Shown here: piece by piece, positions 1 to 9,465 of the stretch
Layout of the letters: each line of letters begins with the position of its first letter
How positions within the stretch are numbered: position 1 is the stretch's first letter
IMG/VR virus record: IMGVR_UViG_3300031851_006037
Coordinates: 1-28,600 of that record
From: a virus
Strand: one strand, 5' to 3'
DNA length: 28,600 nucleotides
The notes under the pieces: generated by a model
Seen by the model: the letters and a program-made list of their open reading frames with translations, nothing else
What the model was told of the DNA's origin: nothing
The model's database searches: none
Program-made: the position numbers and the translations under genes

Positions 1-642
1 TTTAAAATTATATTGTATGTCTTCCTTTATCGAGCCTGAAAAAATGGGGTAAACCGTGAAACATAATAATTCACAAGGATTTCCTTTTTTATCAATTGAT
101 TCGCCTTGAGGGTATACTTCTAGACCGTGTTTATCGATTGGTATATCAAGACCAACTAATCTTAAAAAAAGTTTTTTAATGAAGCTATTAAATATATAAT
201 AATATTTTTGATGTTTAATTTTTCCACTTTCTTCAGTGATAGATTTGCTGTAATTTAGTAAAGAATTATTTCTTTTTAAACCTGAAATAGATTTCGAGTA
301 CGAGCCGGTTATTAAGTGGGCTCTGAAAGAGAAAATGGTTCCAGAAATACCAACATTTCTATTTAGATTCTGCGGGCTTAAGTTGTTGAAAAACAAAGAT
401 TGGGATAAATTTAAAAAATTTTGATCTTGAAAAAAACACATTTTAAAACTTTCATTCATTTTAGGTTTTTTTTCTAGTATTTTTAAATATAATTTGATAG
501 ACAGAATCTTTTCTTCGTTATAATTTATTCCTATGCCATCAAGACATTGATTGTTTTCTTTTAAAAGTTTATATTCCCTCGCGAAGAAAGAACCGTATCT
601 GTTCTCTGTTAAAAACTTTAAAATTTCGTCATTTACATTCAT
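1..642 (-). CDS. Hypothetical protein, last visible gene of the cargo operon (partial, C-terminus outside window)
   Basis: An uninterrupted frame runs leftward from ATG at 642 to the window edge, giving 214 codons without a stop. The start overlaps the 3' end of the citrate synthase-like gene by 14 bases, the same tight overlap seen throughout this operon, which supports a real gene. The protein begins MNVNDEILKFLTENRYGSFF. Near residue 40 it has DGIGINYNEEKILSIKLYLK, a pattern of alternating hydrophobic and charged residues typical of a beta-strand. The middle is rich in Ser, Asn and Lys, and the visible end carries GLEVYPQGES and LLCFTVYPIF. No signal peptide or membrane segment is visible. 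I do not recognise the family. The strand near residue 40 faintly recalls ABBA-type prenyltransferases, which is only a guess. Existence is well supported; function is unknown. Confidence 0.72.
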   Translation of the reverse strand, partial: MNVNDEILKFLTENRYGSFFAREYKLLKENNQCLDGIGINYNEEKILSIKLYLKILEKKPKMNESFKMCFFQDQNFLNLSQSLFFNNLSPQNLNRNVGISGTIFSFRAHLITGSYSKSISGLKRNNSLLNYSKSITEESGKIKHQKYYYIFNSFIKKLFLRLVGLDIPIDKHGLEVYPQGESIDKKGNPCELLCFTVYPIFSGSIKEDIQYNFK

Positions 643-1237
643 GCCTAATAACCTCAAAAGAAGGTACCACTTTGTTAAATCTGGTTTTGGTTTTGTTGTA
701 TATCTTCAGCCAGCCAAACATTCTTCCTAAAAGAGGAAGGAAGAGGCAATTATCCGAAGCTATTCCATTGTCTAGAGATAAGCAAGCTATAATACAACCT
801 ATATTCATTGGCACTGGCGTAATTTTTTCCAAATTTATGCAAAAATTTGTATTATCACCGAATGCTGGTTTGTATTTATTTTTTAGAAAAACAACTCTAT
901 CATCTTCATTTTTTATGGATGGGTGGCCAAACCCCGGGATTTTTTGATTAGCATACCTGCCCAGTACTTCTTGGGGGCTGTATTTATGATTTTTGTGTAT
1001 AAATTCTGCAATTTGTTGTATCGGCAAATGTTGATCACTAATACAATTTAGTCCTGCAGATAGGGCGTGGGCTAGCGATACGCCCGAATTACAAGCTAGA
1101 GCAATAACTGCTGAGCTTGGCGGTTCTATTTTTACAGGAAAATCTATAAAAATATTAGACAAATCATTAAATAAATCTAATTGAATTTCTGTTAAATTGT
1201 CTCCTGCAAGATATTTGTATATATTATTTTTAAACAT
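629..1237 (-). CDS. Truncated citrate synthase / citryl-CoA lyase-like protein, probably catalytically altered
   Basis: This 202-residue protein resembles the C-terminal half of the citrate synthase superfamily. Residues 52-80 (GVSLAHALSAG, then SDQH) match the helix that carries the first catalytic His, here His70, although the usual HGGA is HLPI. Residues 101-114 (PGFGHPSIKNEDDR) match the hallmark GFGHxxYKxxDPR with the second catalytic His, here His105. Residues 144-177 (MNIGCIIACLSLDNGI, then LLGRMFGWL) match the segment PNVDFYSG...ARTVGW, but the catalytic Asp is replaced by Gly147. Citrate synthases have about 380-430 residues and lyase-type relatives about 270, so the large N-terminal domain is mostly missing. 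It overlaps the upstream acetyltransferase gene by 8 bases and lacks a clear ribosome site, so translational coupling is likely. It may bind acyl-CoA without condensing it. Family call is fairly firm; activity is unknown. Confidence 0.68.
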   Translation of the reverse strand: MFKNNIYKYLAGDNLTEIQLDLFNDLSNIFIDFPVKIEPPSSAVIALACNSGVSLAHALSAGLNCISDQHLPIQQIAEFIHKNHKYSPQEVLGRYANQKIPGFGHPSIKNEDDRVVFLKNKYKPAFGDNTNFCINLEKITPVPMNIGCIIACLSLDNGIASDNCLFLPLLGRMFGWLKIYNKTKTRFNKVVPSFEVIRHECK

Positions 1238-1730
1238 TTAATGAAACTTCGTGTTTTGTGGATATTAAGTTGGTCTGAGCTTTATATTTTTGTACGATTT
1301 TTTGTGAGTTTTTTATGGATGCCTCATTTTGAGAATGAATTTCATAAATGAATTTACTGATACCAATATCTTTTAAAAAATTAGCCATAAAAACTCTTAG
1401 TTGAGACCCAACTTTTTGCCTTCTTTGGTTTTTGTCTACAACGGTTAACACTCCTAAGGCTATCGATTCTTGTAGGTCATAAATTTCGTTCAGCTTTGTT
1501 GATGCGCAGGTTAAGCCTATGAGGTCTCCTTCTAAACTGTAACCAAAAATTGGCTGATCTTCAAAAATGATCGGGAAAATTTCTGATTTATATAAGGAAT
1601 ATGCGTTTTTTTCTGTAGGCTTTAAGTTTCCTATAAATAATGAATCATTATTCATTATGCAGGATTTTAAAAGTTTAATTATTTTTTCTTCATGTTGAAA
1701 GTTTAAAGTATGTATTCGGTCGTCACACAT
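1230..1730 (-). CDS. GNAT-family N-acetyltransferase
   Basis: The 166-residue protein has the GNAT core. A beta-strand (ALGVLTVVDK, residues 91-100) leads into the acetyl-CoA pyrophosphate loop QRRQKVGSQL (102-111), which fits R/Q-x-x-G-x-G/A except that the last position is Gln. A long helix (VFMANFLKDIGI) and a second strand (KFIYEIHSQN) follow, then the NEASIKNSQKI element common at the end of GNAT domains. An earlier strand pair (IFGYSLEGDLIGLTCA, 61-76) fits beta2-beta3. The start ATG has a GGAG ribosome site 8 bases upstream. It overlaps guaC and the citrate synthase-like gene by 8 bases each. The substrate cannot be read from sequence; the neighbours suggest a small molecule or a nucleotide, but a protein substrate is equally possible. 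Confidence 0.75.
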   Translation of the reverse strand: MCDDRIHTLNFQHEEKIIKLLKSCIMNNDSLFIGNLKPTEKNAYSLYKSEIFPIIFEDQPIFGYSLEGDLIGLTCASTKLNEIYDLQESIALGVLTVVDKNQRRQKVGSQLRVFMANFLKDIGISKFIYEIHSQNEASIKNSQKIVQKYKAQTNLISTKHEVSLNV

Positions 1731-2700
1731 AATGGTACTCCACGGTTGATAAGCTCTCTAAGTTTTTACCGCCCGCATAACTTATCGAGCTCTGAAGATC
1801 TTGTTCGATTTCTTTTAGTTTTTGCTTAAATGTCATTCTGTTATTCTTGATTGTGTTTAATTTTCCTTCGATATGGCTTGTATGATTTTTATTTTCATAA
1901 CTTGCTGAACCGAAATAAGCTTTGTGAAATTCTCCGTTGATTTCCACGACCCCAGCAGGGCTATCCGTGCAACTTGCAAATAAACTTCCTGCCATAACCA
2001 TACTGGCTCCTGCGACTATAGATTTTGCAATGTCTCCGTTGCATTTTATTCCTCCGTCTGCAATAATAGGAACTTGAAATAGATCTTCTTCATTGTGCCC
2101 CGCATATGTACTCGAGCAATCTTTAACGCAATTAAACATTGGTAATGTAAAACCAGTTTTATCTTTTGTTGTGCAAGCCGAACCCTGCCCTATTCCAACT
2201 TTTACTATATCTGCACCAGCATTAGCTAAATCAATTACAGCCTGCCTTGTCGCCACATTTCCTGCGATAATTTTTGTGCTAGGCAGTTCTTTTTTAACAA
2301 ATTTAATCATTTCGATCATTCTTTTTGAGTGGCCATGTGCAATATCTATTGTTAGAAAATCAATAGTGTTTCCACGCTTTTTTATTTTATGAATTTTATC
2401 TTTATCTATTTCTTGCACCCCTGTACTAAAAGATATTATTTTCCAATTCTCAGCGTTTGCAATAGCTACATTATCAGCAAGATCGTTATAAAAACGATGC
2501 ATAACATAAAAATAGTTATTTTCACTCATCCATTTTGCTAAACTCATGTTAATAACAGACCGCATATTAGCTGGGATGATTGGAAGCTTGAAGTTAAATC
2601 CGCAAAAGTCAACGCTTGCGTCGCATTCTGATCTACTTAAACATTCGCTATACTTTGGTATTAAAGCGATATCTGAGTAATCTCTGTATTTAATTGTCAT
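1723..2700 (-). CDS. guaC: GMP reductase (GuaC, Bacillus-type)
   Basis: GMP reductase converts GMP to IMP and ammonia with NADPH, linking guanine to adenine nucleotides. The 325-residue protein matches the Gram-positive-type GuaC along its whole length: DYSDIALIPK (7-16), SRSECDASV (22-30), KLPIIPANM (38-46), ENNYFYVMHRF (60-70), TIDIAHGHS (117-125), AGNVATRQAV (146-155), VGIGQGSACTTK (168-179) with catalytic Cys176, ADGGIKCNGDIAKS (214-227), YFGSAS (262-267) and DLQSSISYAGG (301-311). There is no CBS pair, unlike most IMP dehydrogenases. An in-frame ATG lies 87 bases upstream, but those codons encode a hydrophobic stretch absent from the family and overlap another small gene; ATG at 2700 with an AGAAGA ribosome site fits the family N-terminus. 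It overlaps its neighbours on both sides. All catalytic motifs are intact, so it should be active. Confidence 0.93.
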   Translation of the reverse strand: MTIKYRDYSDIALIPKYSECLSRSECDASVDFCGFNFKLPIIPANMRSVINMSLAKWMSENNYFYVMHRFYNDLADNVAIANAENWKIISFSTGVQEIDKDKIHKIKKRGNTIDFLTIDIAHGHSKRMIEMIKFVKKELPSTKIIAGNVATRQAVIDLANAGADIVKVGIGQGSACTTKDKTGFTLPMFNCVKDCSSTYAGHNEEDLFQVPIIADGGIKCNGDIAKSIVAGASMVMAGSLFASCTDSPAGVVEINGEFHKAYFGSASYENKNHTSHIEGKLNTIKNNRMTFKQKLKEIEQDLQSSISYAGGKNLESLSTVEYHYV

Positions 2701-2812
2701 AAAAATCGTCTTCTTTTTTCTTGTTGAGCAGCCAAATAATACCACCCATAATCCCGAAAACCAAAAAGTCTCCAGTAAAAAATTCAAAGTAAGAAGTTGC
2801 TAATAAGTGCAT
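2690..2812 (-). CDS. Small single-pass membrane protein (40 aa)
   Basis: A 40-codon frame starts at ATG 2812, sharing the A with the stop codon of the deoxyribosyltransferase-like gene (TAATG), and ends inside the first codons of guaC with an 11-base overlap. The protein has an aromatic N-terminal stretch (SYFEFFTGDFLVF), a hydrophobic helix FLVFGIMGGIIWLL (residues 16-29) with a GxxxG-like glycine pair, and a charged tail NKKKEDDFYDN. This is one membrane segment with the basic end predicted on the cytoplasmic side. The exact stop-start fusion, and the otherwise unexplained 110-base gap in a tightly packed operon, are the main support. It could link translation of the flanking genes or be a phage inner-membrane effector. 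No family is recognised. Confidence 0.6.
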   Translation of the reverse strand: MHLLATSYFEFFTGDFLVFGIMGGIIWLLNKKKEDDFYDN

Positions 2813-3351
2813 TATCTATATTCCTTTTTAAGAAGTCTCCATCTGTCAGAATCAATAGGCTTGTTTCCGCAGTCTATAGCAAAAAGCATATCTATGATCT
2901 CATCGACTGTATTATAAATATATTTATGCGGGAACATTCCAAGCATCCATAGAGGGGTCTTTGATTTTCCCCCTTCCATGCTTACGAAAACTGGTTTTTT
3001 TTCTCTAACCGCCGTAACAATTTCCTCTGCACTTCCCCAGCTTGCAACTTCGGGTACAAGGTGAGCTATAATGAAATCGCTGCGATCAACTAAATTTAAA
3101 TCATACGCTCGAACGGTTTTCATTCGATCTGTCACTCTATCGTATTGCTTCGTTTTCATCCAAGTCTCCATTTCTTGGCGAGATGCCTCATCCTCTTCTA
3201 CATCTTTAATAAATGGTTTCTTATAGGGGTCGAAGCAAGTGATTCCCATTGGATCTAGTTTTTCTGTTACATGCTCTCTCCAATTCCTGCCACTAACATA
3301 TTGCATGTGGCCCACTAAATAACATTTAGTTCTGTACAATAGATTATTCAT
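2812..3351 (-). CDS. Nucleoside 2-deoxyribosyltransferase-like protein
   Basis: The 179-residue protein has the fold signature of the nucleoside 2-deoxyribosyltransferase superfamily. The first strand is KCYLVGHMQYV (9-19), then GRNWREHVTEKL with the typical Trp, a GITCFDPYKKPF segment (36-47), the acidic strand NLVDRSDFIIAHL (86-98), and WGSAEEIVTA (105-114), where Glu110 sits at the position of the nucleophile in the family GTxxEIG motif. KKPVFV follows as the next strand. Members cleave or transfer N-glycosidic bonds of (deoxy)nucleosides or nucleotides, so the protein may recycle bases or destroy a particular nucleotide. A long insert (residues 48-80, rich in Glu, Asp and Lys) separates the first two motifs. 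It is the first gene of the cargo operon and starts just after a consensus promoter, without a ribosome site. The substrate is unknown. Confidence 0.75.
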   Translation of the reverse strand: MNNLLYRTKCYLVGHMQYVSGRNWREHVTEKLDPMGITCFDPYKKPFIKDVEEDEASRQEMETWMKTKQYDRVTDRMKTVRAYDLNLVDRSDFIIAHLVPEVASWGSAEEIVTAVREKKPVFVSMEGGKSKTPLWMLGMFPHKYIYNTVDEIIDMLFAIDCGNKPIDSDRWRLLKKEYR

Positions 3352-3389: not shown

Positions 3390-5075
3390 TTATCTTGCGG
3401 CGATAACATGAACATCGTATTGAGACTTTAATTGCTCTTGAAAATTTAATGTAAATTTTTGTTGATCAATATTAGATAATGTATATTTCATGGGTGTAGG
3501 TATATTTTCATACGGCCATGTATATATCGCAGCCTCTTTCCATTCATTTGCTTCGTTTGAATATATATAAACATAATCTTCTCCAATATGGAAATCGTCT
3601 AAGTCTGTGTCTTCGCTCTCATTAAAATCTGCTCCGCTAACGCTTATTTTAGACCAAAAGTCTTCGCCTGTACATATATATAAGAAATTTCCTTGAACCT
3701 CTTTATCTCCCGCGGAGCCAGAAGTTCTTTGTTCGATCGTAGCTGACACTCTTTTCCATTCGTTCGATTCAGAATAAAAATATTGATACGGATCTTCGAA
3801 TGCAAAATCTCCTTGTTGCCCAAAATCATTTGGCTTCCGACTTTGCTTTAATTGTAAAGTTAAATTCACTACGGGTTTTTTATTAAATTGTTCCGGAAAA
3901 TAAATGTCGTACGAAACATTACCTTCGTGGATCCCCGTGGAAAAAGATTGCATTTTCGTCTCATGCACCGACATGATTTTGGGTGTAGAAGCGCTAACTT
4001 GCAAGAAGTAGCCCGTTCCGGTAATTAAGTTTTCTAAATTTAATTTAAAAGAGTTTTCGGTTACATCAGATATATAATAATTAATAAAAGGCTCTGCAGA
4101 ATTATTTAATAATGTTGTTTGTATTGATGGAATTGACCCGAAAGTTTTTGGTAAATCGATGTCATAACTAATAAGCCCTGCATTAATCTTTTCGGAAAAG
4201 AAAACTGGCTCATCGTATTTTTGAGGAACCACCCTTTCGTAAGACCCATCTTCACCTGTTACATATAATTCCTGTATATATGCGTCTCCAGATATATTTA
4301 AAGATCCAGAATTATTATCTGTGTTGATACTTACATTTCCTGAATTGCTGATAGAGAATTTATTTTCTCCAGAGATAACAACATCTATTCCTGAATTTAT
4401 ATTTAAATAATTGGAGTCGTCTGCAGCAATCCTTAAATGGCCTGAGGAGAATTCAATAAAGCCTTCATGCTGATTGGATTTTAAGATCCCAGATAAATAC
4501 AAATCTCCATCTATAGATAAATTTCCTCCGCAAAAAATATCTCCAGAAGAAGTAAGGGTTCCACCTATATTCGCTTGATTGTTTGTAGTCAAGCTTTCTG
4601 AAGAGACACTTCCAGAGAATATTCCAGAACCTTGAGATGTAAAGTTTCCTTCGGAATAAATTCCTCCGTCAACCTCCAGAGAGGCTTGAGGATCTACTTC
4701 TCCGCCAGAAAACTTGTCTCCGATTCCAACTTTATTGAAATAAATTTGTTCCCCTATGAAGTTGTACCCGCTTATATCTCCTTCTTGAGTTGTATCTACA
4801 ATTTCTTTTGTGAATAATTTACCATTAAATGTGCAATCGTCTTCAAATATTTTTTTACCTCTAATTACTTGATCCCCCGTTATTGCAACAGTGTCATTCA
4901 CTATAGAACTTTTTAGGTCTTTAAAATTAATTACAGAATTATTTTCGTTGGGTTTTGTAACAAGAAACAAAAAATTGTCATGCTGATTGGACTGGGTGTT
5001 GCTTGGGGGTATTTGGTTCGGGAATGCATGCAGTGCGTCAATTTTTTGAAAACTTGATATGCGATTATTTTTCAT
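3390..5075 (-). CDS. Tail fibre-like structural protein
   Basis: This 561-residue protein looks like a trimeric fibre or receptor-binding protein. It is related to the next gene upstream: both start with an Arg-Ile-Ser motif, then a strand FLFLVTKPNENNSVINF (36-51) and TGDQVIRGKKIF (66-77), a motif frequent in fibres of uncultured marine phages. Residues 95-260 are short repeated strands rich in Gly, Ser and Asn (SGSVSSESLTTNNQANIGG and similar), as in beta-helical shafts. The C-terminal half has two segments resembling H-type lectin-like beta-sandwiches (SYDIDLPKTFGSIPSI and SYDIYFPEQFNKKPVV). Between residues about 408 and 515 sit three short hairpin units ending in a Trp (SNEWKRVSA, EDFWSKISV, NEWKEAAIY), also found in the gene at 6778. 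It is followed directly by the cargo promoter. Receptor binding is inferred. Confidence 0.72.
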   Translation of the reverse strand: MKNNRISSFQKIDALHAFPNQIPPSNTQSNQHDNFLFLVTKPNENNSVINFKDLKSSIVNDTVAITGDQVIRGKKIFEDDCTFNGKLFTKEIVDTTQEGDISGYNFIGEQIYFNKVGIGDKFSGGEVDPQASLEVDGGIYSEGNFTSQGSGIFSGSVSSESLTTNNQANIGGTLTSSGDIFCGGNLSIDGDLYLSGILKSNQHEGFIEFSSGHLRIAADDSNYLNINSGIDVVISGENKFSISNSGNVSINTDNNSGSLNISGDAYIQELYVTGEDGSYERVVPQKYDEPVFFSEKINAGLISYDIDLPKTFGSIPSIQTTLLNNSAEPFINYYISDVTENSFKLNLENLITGTGYFLQVSASTPKIMSVHETKMQSFSTGIHEGNVSYDIYFPEQFNKKPVVNLTLQLKQSRKPNDFGQQGDFAFEDPYQYFYSESNEWKRVSATIEQRTSGSAGDKEVQGNFLYICTGEDFWSKISVSGADFNESEDTDLDDFHIGEDYVYIYSNEANEWKEAAIYTWPYENIPTPMKYTLSNIDQQKFTLNFQEQLKSQYDVHVIAAR

Positions 5076-5080
5076 TATAA

Positions 5081-6727
5081 TTAACTAATTCTTTGGTTTT
5101 GTTTTTTGGTTGCTATTGTGTGAACTGTGAAATTATTTTGCGGAGCATTTTCAAAATTTAAGATGTACCCTGTGCTATTTACACCCGAAATTAAAAATTT
5201 ATCTTCCATATTAAGATTTTCTAGAGTTGCGGATATTTTAACGTCTTGATATTCTTCGGGAAAGTTTATTTCATATCTTTCACCTTGCACATTTAAGGAA
5301 TTTGAGAAACGGTATATTGATTTATTTTTTGATGCAAAAGTAGAATCTGAACCTCCCATAACAATTGTATGCAGTTTAGATTCATTGCTCTCTATATTTG
5401 AGTCAAATTCGATTTCATAAGAGTATTTATCGACCCCGTAAATTTTATAATTATTAACTCCGGTTTGGTTTTTGAAACAATTTTCTGTTGATGCAGAGAT
5501 TACAGGAACGCTTTTAAAAGTTTTTGGGAAAAAAATTGTAAAGTTTTTCTCCCCTGAATTTAAACGAGTAGAAAAAGCCATAGACTCTTCGTTTCCTCCT
5601 ATAAACTGTCCGGACCTATGATAAATAGATGAAATAAATGATTTTCCAGAAAATGAAATTTCTCCAGAAGTAACCCCGTTTCCTAGCACGTTAGATTCTC
5701 CGATGCGTATATAATTTTCAATATTACATGTTCCGGTGTTCGATAAGTTGAAAAGATCCTTAGATGAATCTTTAAAAATTAAATTCGAACCTATCGTCCC
5801 CGTAAAATTTTCCACTTTAATAATTCCTGACATTGCATTAGGGTGGGAAGTACAATAGTAACTATAACTCCCTGTTTCTGCTGCGGAAAAAACTGTTTGA
5901 CCACCTTCTTCTGAAGCGATAATATCGTCAGAGGAATCTTTTATTTCGAATGGGTGTCCCTCGCCTATATTGTTAAATATTAAAGTATTGCCTATGTAAG
6001 CTGTAATGGTCGGATCATCGCCTTGGACATCTTCAGTGAAACTATAGTCGGTTCCGTTTCCTATGATGTTAATATTTAAAGTTCTTGTATCTGAAATTTC
6101 TGCTTCTTTAGATATAAAATTTAATTGAGAGTCTGGGTAAAAAACAGAATCCTTGATTGACGTTTGGTTTCCGCTAACACTAAAATCATCTAGTCCAAAT
6201 ATATTGGTGCTAGAATTTAAGTTTTTAAGGCTCACCTCCTGCGCGACAATAATATTGTCGCATTGTAGGGCGTTGAAAGAGCTTGAGTTCTCATTGTTTA
6301 CAACCAAGTTTTCTAGGCAATCAATATCTAATGTGTTGCATCTAAATTTTTCCGGCACAGTTTTAATGTTTAATTGTTTGAAATATCCCGTTTTAGCTTC
6401 AAAGTTTACGCCCGAAGCGTTTTCTCCGGTCGATACTGATCCAATTGAATTTATTGAAAGCCTTCTGTTTATGCGAACTTCATTATCAAATATTTTCTTT
6501 CCGCTTATAGTTTGATCCCCCCTAAGATGTATAACTTCGGCCAGGGTTGAGTTGTATAATCCAGAAAATGATATAATTTCATTGCTTATCTTTGGATTAA
6601 TTACCATGAAATACCATTCATCGTTAAGCTCAGAGTATGAAGGCGGAGAACTTTCGTAGTTGAAATTCGTGCCGGAGGAAAAAAGCGGTCCAGTTTTAGG
6701 TAATTCTGATATTCTTTGATTTGGCAT
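5081..6727 (-). CDS. Tail fibre-like protein with a cupredoxin-like domain
   Basis: The 548-residue protein is a paralogue of the gene downstream, sharing the N-terminal RIS motif, the strand WYFMVINPKISNEIISF (38-54) and GDQTISGKKIF (70-80). Residues about 218-308 form an inserted domain with the plastocyanin/amicyanin ligand set: His258 (GEGHPFEI), Cys292, His295 and Met299 in YYCTSHPNAM, followed by the closing strand SGIIKV. This matches a type-1 copper site. The C-terminal third has beta-sandwich segments (NFTIFFPKTFKSVPVI and YEINFPEEYQDVKI) like those of its paralogue. Five bases separate the two fibre genes, so they are probably co-transcribed. Similar YYCxxH segments occur in structural proteins of marine phages, so a structural metal site or adhesion role is more likely than electron transfer. 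Confidence 0.74.
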   Translation of the reverse strand: MPNQRISELPKTGPLFSSGTNFNYESSPPSYSELNDEWYFMVINPKISNEIISFSGLYNSTLAEVIHLRGDQTISGKKIFDNEVRINRRLSINSIGSVSTGENASGVNFEAKTGYFKQLNIKTVPEKFRCNTLDIDCLENLVVNNENSSSFNALQCDNIIVAQEVSLKNLNSSTNIFGLDDFSVSGNQTSIKDSVFYPDSQLNFISKEAEISDTRTLNINIIGNGTDYSFTEDVQGDDPTITAYIGNTLIFNNIGEGHPFEIKDSSDDIIASEEGGQTVFSAAETGSYSYYCTSHPNAMSGIIKVENFTGTIGSNLIFKDSSKDLFNLSNTGTCNIENYIRIGESNVLGNGVTSGEISFSGKSFISSIYHRSGQFIGGNEESMAFSTRLNSGEKNFTIFFPKTFKSVPVISASTENCFKNQTGVNNYKIYGVDKYSYEIEFDSNIESNESKLHTIVMGGSDSTFASKNKSIYRFSNSLNVQGERYEINFPEEYQDVKISATLENLNMEDKFLISGVNSTGYILNFENAPQNNFTVHTIATKKQNQRIS

Positions 6728-6777
6728 GGCAGCAAGCTTTATTACACCAAAACAGGAGAATTTGTGTAATAACTTTA

Positions 6778-9465
6778 ATGGTACAAGGAGTAATGGACAG
6801 GTTGACCTATGAGCGGTTGGGGGTAATATTAACTGACGCTCCCGCGTACAAAGAGAGCGGGTCTAAATACAAGGATTTAATTAGGGTTCAAAATATGAGT
6901 TACGAATTAACTCATCAAGCCATAGATATTAAGGCGGTAGGAAGCGATGCGTTGGTTACTAGGGGTGGCCAAAGCCCCGTTGTTAGAGCTCCAGACGTTT
7001 CTTGTGATATAGGGTATTTATTTACTCACGGACTAAACGAAAGCAGTATAGGGTTTCATTTGAAGGAAGACGGCAGTATTTTAAAAAATTTTTTATTACA
7101 AAATCATACTGACGATATAAATATATTAATTGTTTCTTCAACCAAAAATGATCACGAGGATATTACTTTTTTGCAGTCCGAAAGTGATTTTGAAGATTTT
7201 AACATTATAGGTGTTGGTAACGCATTTCTGTCTCGCTATGCGTACAGCGCTTCAGTTGGCCAATTCGCCTCTAGCGTTGTTGCTTACGGAGGAAGTAATA
7301 TTCAATTTGATTTATATTCTTCTCAGAACAGGCCAAAGCTACCAGCTATAAAATTAGGTATTGACAATATCAGATCTAGTGAAGTATTAGAGTTGAGTCC
7401 GGAAAAGTTTGCAGATCTAGACCATGCTCCAGATAAAATATTTGATTCTCATGTTTTTCCTGAAATTTCTGCTATTAGTCCCGGAACAATAACTGCAACT
7501 ATTTTTAAAATTAGCGGTGACAGGGGTGGTGCTATTTTAGATTCTGCACATGCAGCCGTACAAAATATTAACATCGACCTTCCCATCCCAAGACAAGAAA
7601 TTTATGGATTGGGCAGCAACTTTATATTTGATAGGAAGTTAAAACTGCCCATTATTGGATCTCTTTCTATAGACATGATATTGAGAGAATATTCTCAAGA
7701 TCAGCTCAGCGGCTTCTTGAATAAGACAAATACTTATGATATTAAGATTGATCATAAAATTCATTCTTCTATAAACGGAGATAGCGGTGATTTTTTTGCG
7801 GACGACCTAAGTGAAAAATTTTACATTAACATAGGTGATGGACAATGGAAGGTCACATCTATTAGTCAAGCATCTATTGAAGAAAATTCTTCTCCACCTT
7901 TTGATGAAGAAGAATACATCTCTGGGCAAGAAGATTTTTATTATGTTAAGGTAAGGGGGTCTACATGGTTGAAAATTCCTCTTGAGGCTAGCGATTTTAC
8001 ACTTGCGGGCAGCGATGTATTATCTAAGTTCTATCAGGGAGATTATGTGCATATCAAGACCGAAAGTTCTTTTCGCAAATTTGCAGTAACAGATGTTATT
8101 ATTGATAATGACTTAATTCAAGAATTGTCTTTTGATTCTGCTGTAAAAATAGTTAACAACATTACATTCGAAATTAACAACGCGCAATTGCAAAACCAGT
8201 CTTACACTCATGAAATAGGTTCTGATGTAATGGTTAGCTCCGCTTTATCTTTTGGAGTAACGAAAAATGATGGCTTAAAACTTTATCCACGATTTATACC
8301 AAGAGATCCTCCTGATTGGTCTAGCGGTTTCGACTCTATAACTCATGATGAAAATAACTCTTCTGCACTAAATTACGATAAAACTTTAGAACGTGGCGAC
8401 AGCAAGGTCAACTTTTCAGCGGGAGGTGCAGATGGGCAATATTTTGAAGTGCATCCAGATGGAGAAATATTTTTTCTTGAGGCTCCAGACTTTGAAACTA
8501 AATCTACTTATTCGTTATCTATAACAGCAACAAATGATGCTGGATCGTCTTCAAAAAATATAGACGTTCAAATTATAGATAAAAATGATTCTAATCCTGT
8601 TTGGAGCCTGAGGGAAGAAGCCGTAGATCACTTAGAGGGAGAAACTATAGTAAATTATAATCAGTCTTTAAATATAGATTCTGCACTTAGTTTTTACGGT
8701 TTATCTGGAGAAGATAAGAAATATTTTTCTTTATCCTCTTCAGGAGAACTATCTTTCAATTTTACTCCAGATTATGAAACCGCTACGAAAAAGACTTATA
8801 ATTTATTTATAACCGCTTTTAATGAGTTTGGAAATACAGATAAGTTGCTAAGTATCAATCTTATAAATCAAATAGATTCTTCTCCAGAATGGGTAATTAA
8901 TTCTGAAGATATTCTTATCGAAAGAGGTGATTTAACTAATTTAAATATTATTGGTCAAATAAAAGAATTTCAAGATCACCCTGTTTCATACTCTATATTA
9001 GGACAAGACTCTGCGCTATTCCAAATCTCAGCAGAGGGGAATATATCTTTCGTTGGGCAGGCTAGCTTAATAAATAAGACCTCACTTTATTTCGAAGCTG
9101 AAGCCTCTAATAATATAGGTTCGAATGTTAAACAAGTGAGCATAAAGATTAATCAAGCTGTATTTATCGAGGACAGTCGAGTTGTGTTTGAGGGGGCTGT
9201 TCCTGGAGAATACCTTAAGGTCGGTTCCGTTCAAGAGTTTAGAATTTTACCTGCTTACGGGTTTAGGGAGGATTATTCTGTCATGGATTTCGCTTATTTC
9301 GCCGCAGGCGGATACGATTGGGCTAAGGTCGCCTTGGTTCCATCTGAGTTAAGCGATCAAGAAGAATTCGATGTTGCTCAAGAGGGCGATAAGGTCTTCA
9401 TCGAAGATTACGTTCATATTTATACAAATATTAGCGGTTGGATGAAAACCATACTCACCCAATAA
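6778..9465 (+). CDS. Tail tube-like protein fused to cadherin-like repeats
   Basis: The 895-residue product starts with a region homologous to the tail tube protein at 9520. Matching pieces are RVQNMSYEL with RVQSANYSF, GVGNAFLSRYAYSASVG with ALGNGFVTNYSVEASVG, LPAIKLG with LPAINNQ, and VQNINIDLPIPRQEI with VQSFSIDIPVGRSTI. Near 7789-8090 lie short Trp hairpin units shared with the fibre at 3390. From about 8310 to 9165 there are three cadherin-like repeats with PDFETK and PDYETA, ITATNDAG, and IDKNDSNPVW, the last close to the calcium-binding DxNDNxP motif. ATG at 6778 was chosen; a TTG at 6721 would overlap the divergent fibre start, and ATG 6793 has AAGGAG only 2 bases away. The gene is alone on its strand between minus-strand blocks and ends in its own terminator. 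It may decorate the tube or tip and bind cell surfaces. Confidence 0.75.
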   Translation: MVQGVMDRLTYERLGVILTDAPAYKESGSKYKDLIRVQNMSYELTHQAIDIKAVGSDALVTRGGQSPVVRAPDVSCDIGYLFTHGLNESSIGFHLKEDGSILKNFLLQNHTDDINILIVSSTKNDHEDITFLQSESDFEDFNIIGVGNAFLSRYAYSASVGQFASSVVAYGGSNIQFDLYSSQNRPKLPAIKLGIDNIRSSEVLELSPEKFADLDHAPDKIFDSHVFPEISAISPGTITATIFKISGDRGGAILDSAHAAVQNINIDLPIPRQEIYGLGSNFIFDRKLKLPIIGSLSIDMILREYSQDQLSGFLNKTNTYDIKIDHKIHSSINGDSGDFFADDLSEKFYINIGDGQWKVTSISQASIEENSSPPFDEEEYISGQEDFYYVKVRGSTWLKIPLEASDFTLAGSDVLSKFYQGDYVHIKTESSFRKFAVTDVIIDNDLIQELSFDSAVKIVNNITFEINNAQLQNQSYTHEIGSDVMVSSALSFGVTKNDGLKLYPRFIPRDPPDWSSGFDSITHDENNSSALNYDKTLERGDSKVNFSAGGADGQYFEVHPDGEIFFLEAPDFETKSTYSLSITATNDAGSSSKNIDVQIIDKNDSNPVWSLREEAVDHLEGETIVNYNQSLNIDSALSFYGLSGEDKKYFSLSSSGELSFNFTPDYETATKKTYNLFITAFNEFGNTDKLLSINLINQIDSSPEWVINSEDILIERGDLTNLNIIGQIKEFQDHPVSYSILGQDSALFQISAEGNISFVGQASLINKTSLYFEAEASNNIGSNVKQVSIKINQAVFIEDSRVVFEGAVPGEYLKVGSVQEFRILPAYGFREDYSVMDFAYFAAGGYDWAKVALVPSELSDQEEFDVAQEGDKVFIEDYVHIYTNISGWMKTILTQ

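Follow-up and report, generated by a model that had tools for sequence, protein, structure and literature searches.

The question raised by this locus is whether a viral tail fibre contains a cupredoxin domain equipped to hold copper, and what such a domain may do there. The stretch of DNA analysed (28,600 nucleotides, hereafter the window) belongs to a linear virus record (G000) of 28.6 kb with a G+C content of 34–38%, and its features of interest are collected in Table 1. From N- to C-terminus, the protein at issue, fibre A, consists of a region common to its neighbouring paralogue, a middle stalk, the cupredoxin domain and an H-type-lectin-like C-terminal region. The paralogue, fibre B, resembles fibre A over the N-terminal ~130 residues and the C-terminal region (BLASTP E 2e-13), so that the paralogy covers the N-terminus and the C-terminal half while the cupredoxin domain is missing, and fibre B gave no match to the domain profile, in keeping with the preliminary description. 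Both fibre genes are followed by a lambda-like tail module comprising a tape measure protein with PhageMin_Tail and M/L-like minor tail proteins (Phage_min_tail, Phage_tail_L). Considering the conserved fibre N-terminus and C-terminal region together with the adjoining tail genes, fibre A is a predicted tail fibre.

Several neighbouring products deserve mention in their own right. The Pfam H_lectin match of fibre B (26.1 bits) suggests glycan binding, and the fibre A orthologue of a related phage (G001) has a weak H_lectin match. A protein resembling IMP dehydrogenase/GMP reductase is encoded beside the fibres and kept in relatives (Pfam IMPDH, 206.8 bits), and a nucleoside 2-deoxyribosyltransferase-like protein, which found just one match in the phage collection, adjoins fibre B in the window and in G001, G003 and G006. 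A 914-residue ORF transcribed divergently carries cadherin/Ig-like repeats (Cadherin 26.2 bits, slightly under the cut-off), and a 202-residue ORF resembles the C-terminal domain of citrate synthase (26.5 bits against a cut-off of 27), with no N-terminal half seen.

Table 1. Positions in the window of the fibre genes, the predicted copper site and neighbouring ORFs
Feature	Position	Strand	Length	Remarks
ORF resembling citrate synthase C-terminal domain	629–1237	-	202 aa	
IMP dehydrogenase/GMP reductase-like protein	1723–2787	-		Pfam IMPDH
Nucleoside 2-deoxyribosyltransferase-like protein	2812–3351	-		
Fibre B	3390–5075	-		Paralogue without cupredoxin domain; Pfam H_lectin match
Fibre A ORF	5081–6727	-	548 aa	
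Segment missing in G003 fibre	5789–6121	-		Residues ~203–313
Predicted cupredoxin domain	5807–6091	-		Residues ~213–307; Pfam PF00127, AF2, Foldseek, VIA, independent profile
Met299 codon	5831–5833	-		Axial ligand; loop CX2HX3M
His295 codon	5843–5845	-		Ligand
Cys292 codon	5852–5854	-		Thiolate ligand
His258 codon	5954–5956	-		First ligand; motif GHPF
ORF with cadherin/Ig-like repeats	6721–9465	+	914 aa	Divergent transcription

That fibre A contains a cupredoxin domain, as had been proposed from a first reading of the sequence, was borne out by profile searches. With 22.2 bits, the match to Pfam Copper-bind, the model of the plastocyanin/azurin family, exceeds the cut-off of 21.2 and spans the C-terminal half of the model only; the G001 orthologue fell slightly under the cut-off (19.7 bits). 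With an independent profile of 29 phage relatives, from which the window sequence and every row with the HPN loop type had been left out, fibre A was the sole match among the six-frame ORFs of the window (47.5 bits, E 2e-14). Shuffled fibre A sequences of the same composition scored nothing reportable on this profile, and one of 20,000 shuffles of the fibre A protein gave the ligand pattern H..[YF]xCxxH..M. The range originally assigned to the domain, positions 5806–6076, took in residues ~218–307 and stopped short of its N-terminal edge, the domain running from residue ~213.

Structure prediction, which the preliminary description had put forward as a check, returned a cupredoxin fold with blue copper proteins as best matches. 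AlphaFold2 supplied with an alignment of 35 sequences gave a model of nine short strands (pLDDT 88, pTM 0.80), which was used instead of the single-sequence model (pLDDT 71). Foldseek matched the predicted domain to blue copper proteins (E 6.5e-7), and the best VIA match was the N-terminal cupredoxin domain of Hyphomicrobium nitrite reductase (Z 12.6, 1.9 Å, 92 residues), with rusticyanin (Z 10.1) and auracyanin (Z 9.4) behind it. Laccases and the purple cupredoxin Nmar came next, near 9; since this is about the level of a common arrangement, the weight rests on the top structure matches. The phage-domain profile searched against PDB sequences found amicyanin and rusticyanin (E ~1e-6). The entry at the top of that search, 8prj, was rejected, being a repeat protein aligned over columns 2–43 only, in its repeats and without ligands. 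By sequence and predicted-structure criteria the domain is a member of the cupredoxin family, residues ~213–307 being modelled as a cupredoxin fold of ~100 residues, of the eight-stranded Greek-key beta-sandwich type. It shares its predicted fold, strand order and the positions of H...C-x2-H...M with amicyanin, rusticyanin, auracyanin and the Hyphomicrobium nitrite reductase domain, and differs from characterised cupredoxins in lying within a fibre with no redox partner identified.

How the domain came to lie in fibre A is indicated by two phages closely related to the one in the window, which were located via the latter's minor tail protein (91% identical in G001, 84% in G003). The orthologous fibre of G001 is 75% identical and has all four ligands; within the cupredoxin domain the identity is 64% and dN/dS is 0.17, with 0.15–0.17 in the flanks (rough values, dS exceeding 1), and in this pair the domain is, as far as sequence comparison tells, under purifying selection. 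The orthologous fibre of G003 (439 residues) is 56–57% identical on either side of the domain and lacks the whole of it. The earlier view of the domain as an insertion, drawn from its absence in the paralogue, is upheld, and this empty orthologue shows it better than the paralogue does. Moreover, since the domain profile found no match in the fibre homologues of G004 and G010 or in fibre B, we infer that the domain was gained by insertion, which is more parsimonious than loss. In G006 a different fibre, of 1,218 residues and adjoining the paralogous fibres, carries a copy whose ligand motifs are GHPL and YRCKSHPNSM.

The predicted domain of fibre A holds a complete type-1 ligand set, His258, Cys292, His295 and Met299, and the residue numbers first given for it proved exact. 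When the phage profile is aligned with the amicyanin and rusticyanin sequences, its H, C, H, M columns coincide with the copper ligands of those two proteins, and the four residues are invariant in alignments A2 (12 rows) and A3. The full set is present in 79 of 84 full-length domains, Gln standing for Met in four and the first His missing in one; Gln is the axial ligand in stellacyanin-type sites. A second type of cupredoxin-like domain, with its axial Met likewise replaced by Gln (CHHHTGQG), was seen in L065, L068 and L071, near residue 206. The survey of ligand conservation that had been suggested, carried out on domains clustered to below 60% identity (n=29), found Cys and the second His in all 29 and the first His and Met in 28 each, the five most conserved columns being the four ligands and the Tyr two before Cys. 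The likeness to plastocyanin and amicyanin noted previously stands for the ligand set and not for the loop: amicyanin has CX2HX2M, and fibre A, with CX2HX3M, exceeds it by one residue and stays within the C-x(2-4)-H-x(2-4)-M pattern of type-1 cupredoxins. Most phage copies have the amicyanin-type spacing (n=72; n=9 for that of the window), and in most of them Pro replaces the Asn that follows the first His in characterised cupredoxins. We know of no characterised cupredoxin with the CX2HX3M spacing.

It is in this conservation that the best-surviving alternative must be weighed, namely that the domain is a mere Ig-like beta-sandwich decoration in which metal binding is incidental or lost. Ig-like domains are common in phage fibres, and L050 contains truncated or degenerate repeat copies without ligands, so that the fold is apparently usable without a copper site. 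Against this, the ligands supply four of the five most conserved columns across 29 divergent copies, and the G001 orthologue retains all four at the domain identity given above; we consider decoration unlikely.

The preliminary description implied a singular context for the domain, which did not hold, the same kind of domain being widespread in tail proteins of marine cyanophages. With the window domain as tblastn query, 18 records were matched, from cyanophages or marine viruses, and with the P-RSM6 version 337, from marine cyanophages nearly throughout, most of the latter matches listed being annotated as gp9 baseplate wedge tail fiber connector. In gp9 of S-SSM5, residues 1–138 correspond to Pfam T4_gp9_10_N and the cupredoxin domain is C-terminal. 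Other carriers are S8-protease tail proteins of S-CAM4, ACG-2014e and S-H9-1, among proximal fibre or spike proteins the tail spike of P-SSM2 (with two cupredoxin copies) and a tail fibre of S-CAM1, tail-region proteins of the podophages P-GSP1 and P-SCSP2, and a protein of a freshwater Actinomycetia phage in which the domain follows a YHYH domain; the BFVD models gave the same list. In the Actinomycetia phage DSL-LC01 (L122:2128–3498), the neighbours of the YHYH and cupredoxin protein are collagen-like proteins and a tryptophan halogenase. Considering these carriers, which include several unrelated proteins, the module occurs with tails of long contractile, podoviral and lambda-like type. In IMG/VR, whole fibre A found no match, the window domain alone found four, and cyanophage versions found 38 and 27. 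Patterns taken from two of the phage versions found no relative in bacteria or archaea, in two shallow genome scans that depend on close peptide matches and are no proof of absence. Hundreds of cyanophage records contain the predicted domain, in virion or tail proteins and without a cupredoxin label. Its nearest known counterpart in context, the gp9 connector (phrog_677), has the same domain and ligands and also belongs to the tail-fibre apparatus of marine phages; it differs in that the carrier protein is unrelated, the domain is C-terminal rather than internal and goes without a cupredoxin annotation, and the tail of the window phage is of lambda-like type.

We suggest that a mobile cupredoxin with a type-1 site was inserted in the fibre shaft, where it would act as a copper staple and as an interaction surface in adsorption rather than as an electron carrier, a reading to which we give a probability of roughly 0.6. 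The blue-copper domain would have entered the shaft with the attachment part on its N-terminal side and the lectin-like part on its C-terminal side. Each subunit would bind one Cu through the four ligands, copper binding being indicated by a site that is complete and conserved where the remaining domain varies. Less surely, the copper may serve as a staple by which an exposed beta-sandwich stays folded, and the domain may, judging from its context, be an interaction surface of the adsorption apparatus. Stabilisation, redox sensing and binding of a host surface target, put forward in the preliminary description, are candidate roles. Because the cytoplasm, where virions are assembled, is poor in copper, our guess is that the site would probably be filled at the envelope or once the cell has lysed.

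The metals known from phage tails are mainly iron and zinc, in trimeric fibres. The iron-binding HxH fibres (T4 gp37, Alteromonas phage R22Y) likewise place metal in the adsorption apparatus, and their iron site lies between trimer chains, whereas that of fibre A is a predicted single-chain copper site in a beta-sandwich. Such HxH motifs in marine phage fibres provide a precedent for metal in fibres, and have been proposed to act as bait (PMC11705849); copper held by fibre A could in the same way be recognised by a copper-uptake or copper-binding protein of the host surface, and such a role would suit the recurrence of the domain among the adsorption proteins of marine phages. However, type-1 sites are normally buried, which would leave the copper unexposed, and the gp9 copy is located in the fibre socket, not at the tip. 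We therefore prefer a staple and interaction surface to a bait, which seems to us a shade less likely again than mere decoration. Somewhat less likely still is a redox-active site, by which the fibre would pass electrons to or from a protein of the host envelope, or change conformation on sensing redox state, as might be read from the full type-1 set with axial Met and natural Gln variants, typical of redox-tuned sites. No cytochrome, oxidase or copper chaperone, and no other partner, was found among the window proteins scanned, and no phage homologue has a demonstrated redox role; it is this lack of a partner gene that favours a staple and interaction surface over electron transfer. Finally, capture of a photosynthetic plastocyanin gene (petE) as an auxiliary metabolic gene fused to the fibre is highly improbable, for although petE is known in cyanophages (PMC2984593) and a weak match to phrog_515 PetE was obtained (E 0.056), tail families match far better (phrog_677 gp9 connector, E 3e-8), Copper-bind is reached at E 0.01 in only 20 of 35 relatives, the plastocyanin loop is C-x2-H-x4-M, the best structure matches are non-plastocyanin cupredoxins and the tail genes of the window are lambda-like. 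By its loop and best match, the putative domain is not a captured plastocyanin gene.

Our literature search turned up no account of a cupredoxin domain in a phage tail, and in the papers on plastocyanin and phage structural proteins examined, plastocyanin figures only as petE; since subscription journals were mostly outside the search, this is weak evidence of novelty. Once identified as a cupredoxin, a domain so far called hypothetical or connector has a name that points to a function. In addition, the spread of the predicted domain across cyanophage tail proteins suggests that copper may be present in many marine phage particles. A bolder proposal, tentative and on balance doubtful, is that blue-copper domains are a standard, overlooked adsorption module of marine phages, with several Cu per virion and with copper or redox state controlling adsorption. 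If copper is indeed bound, virions would be copper carriers, and their adsorption may be copper- or redox-dependent.
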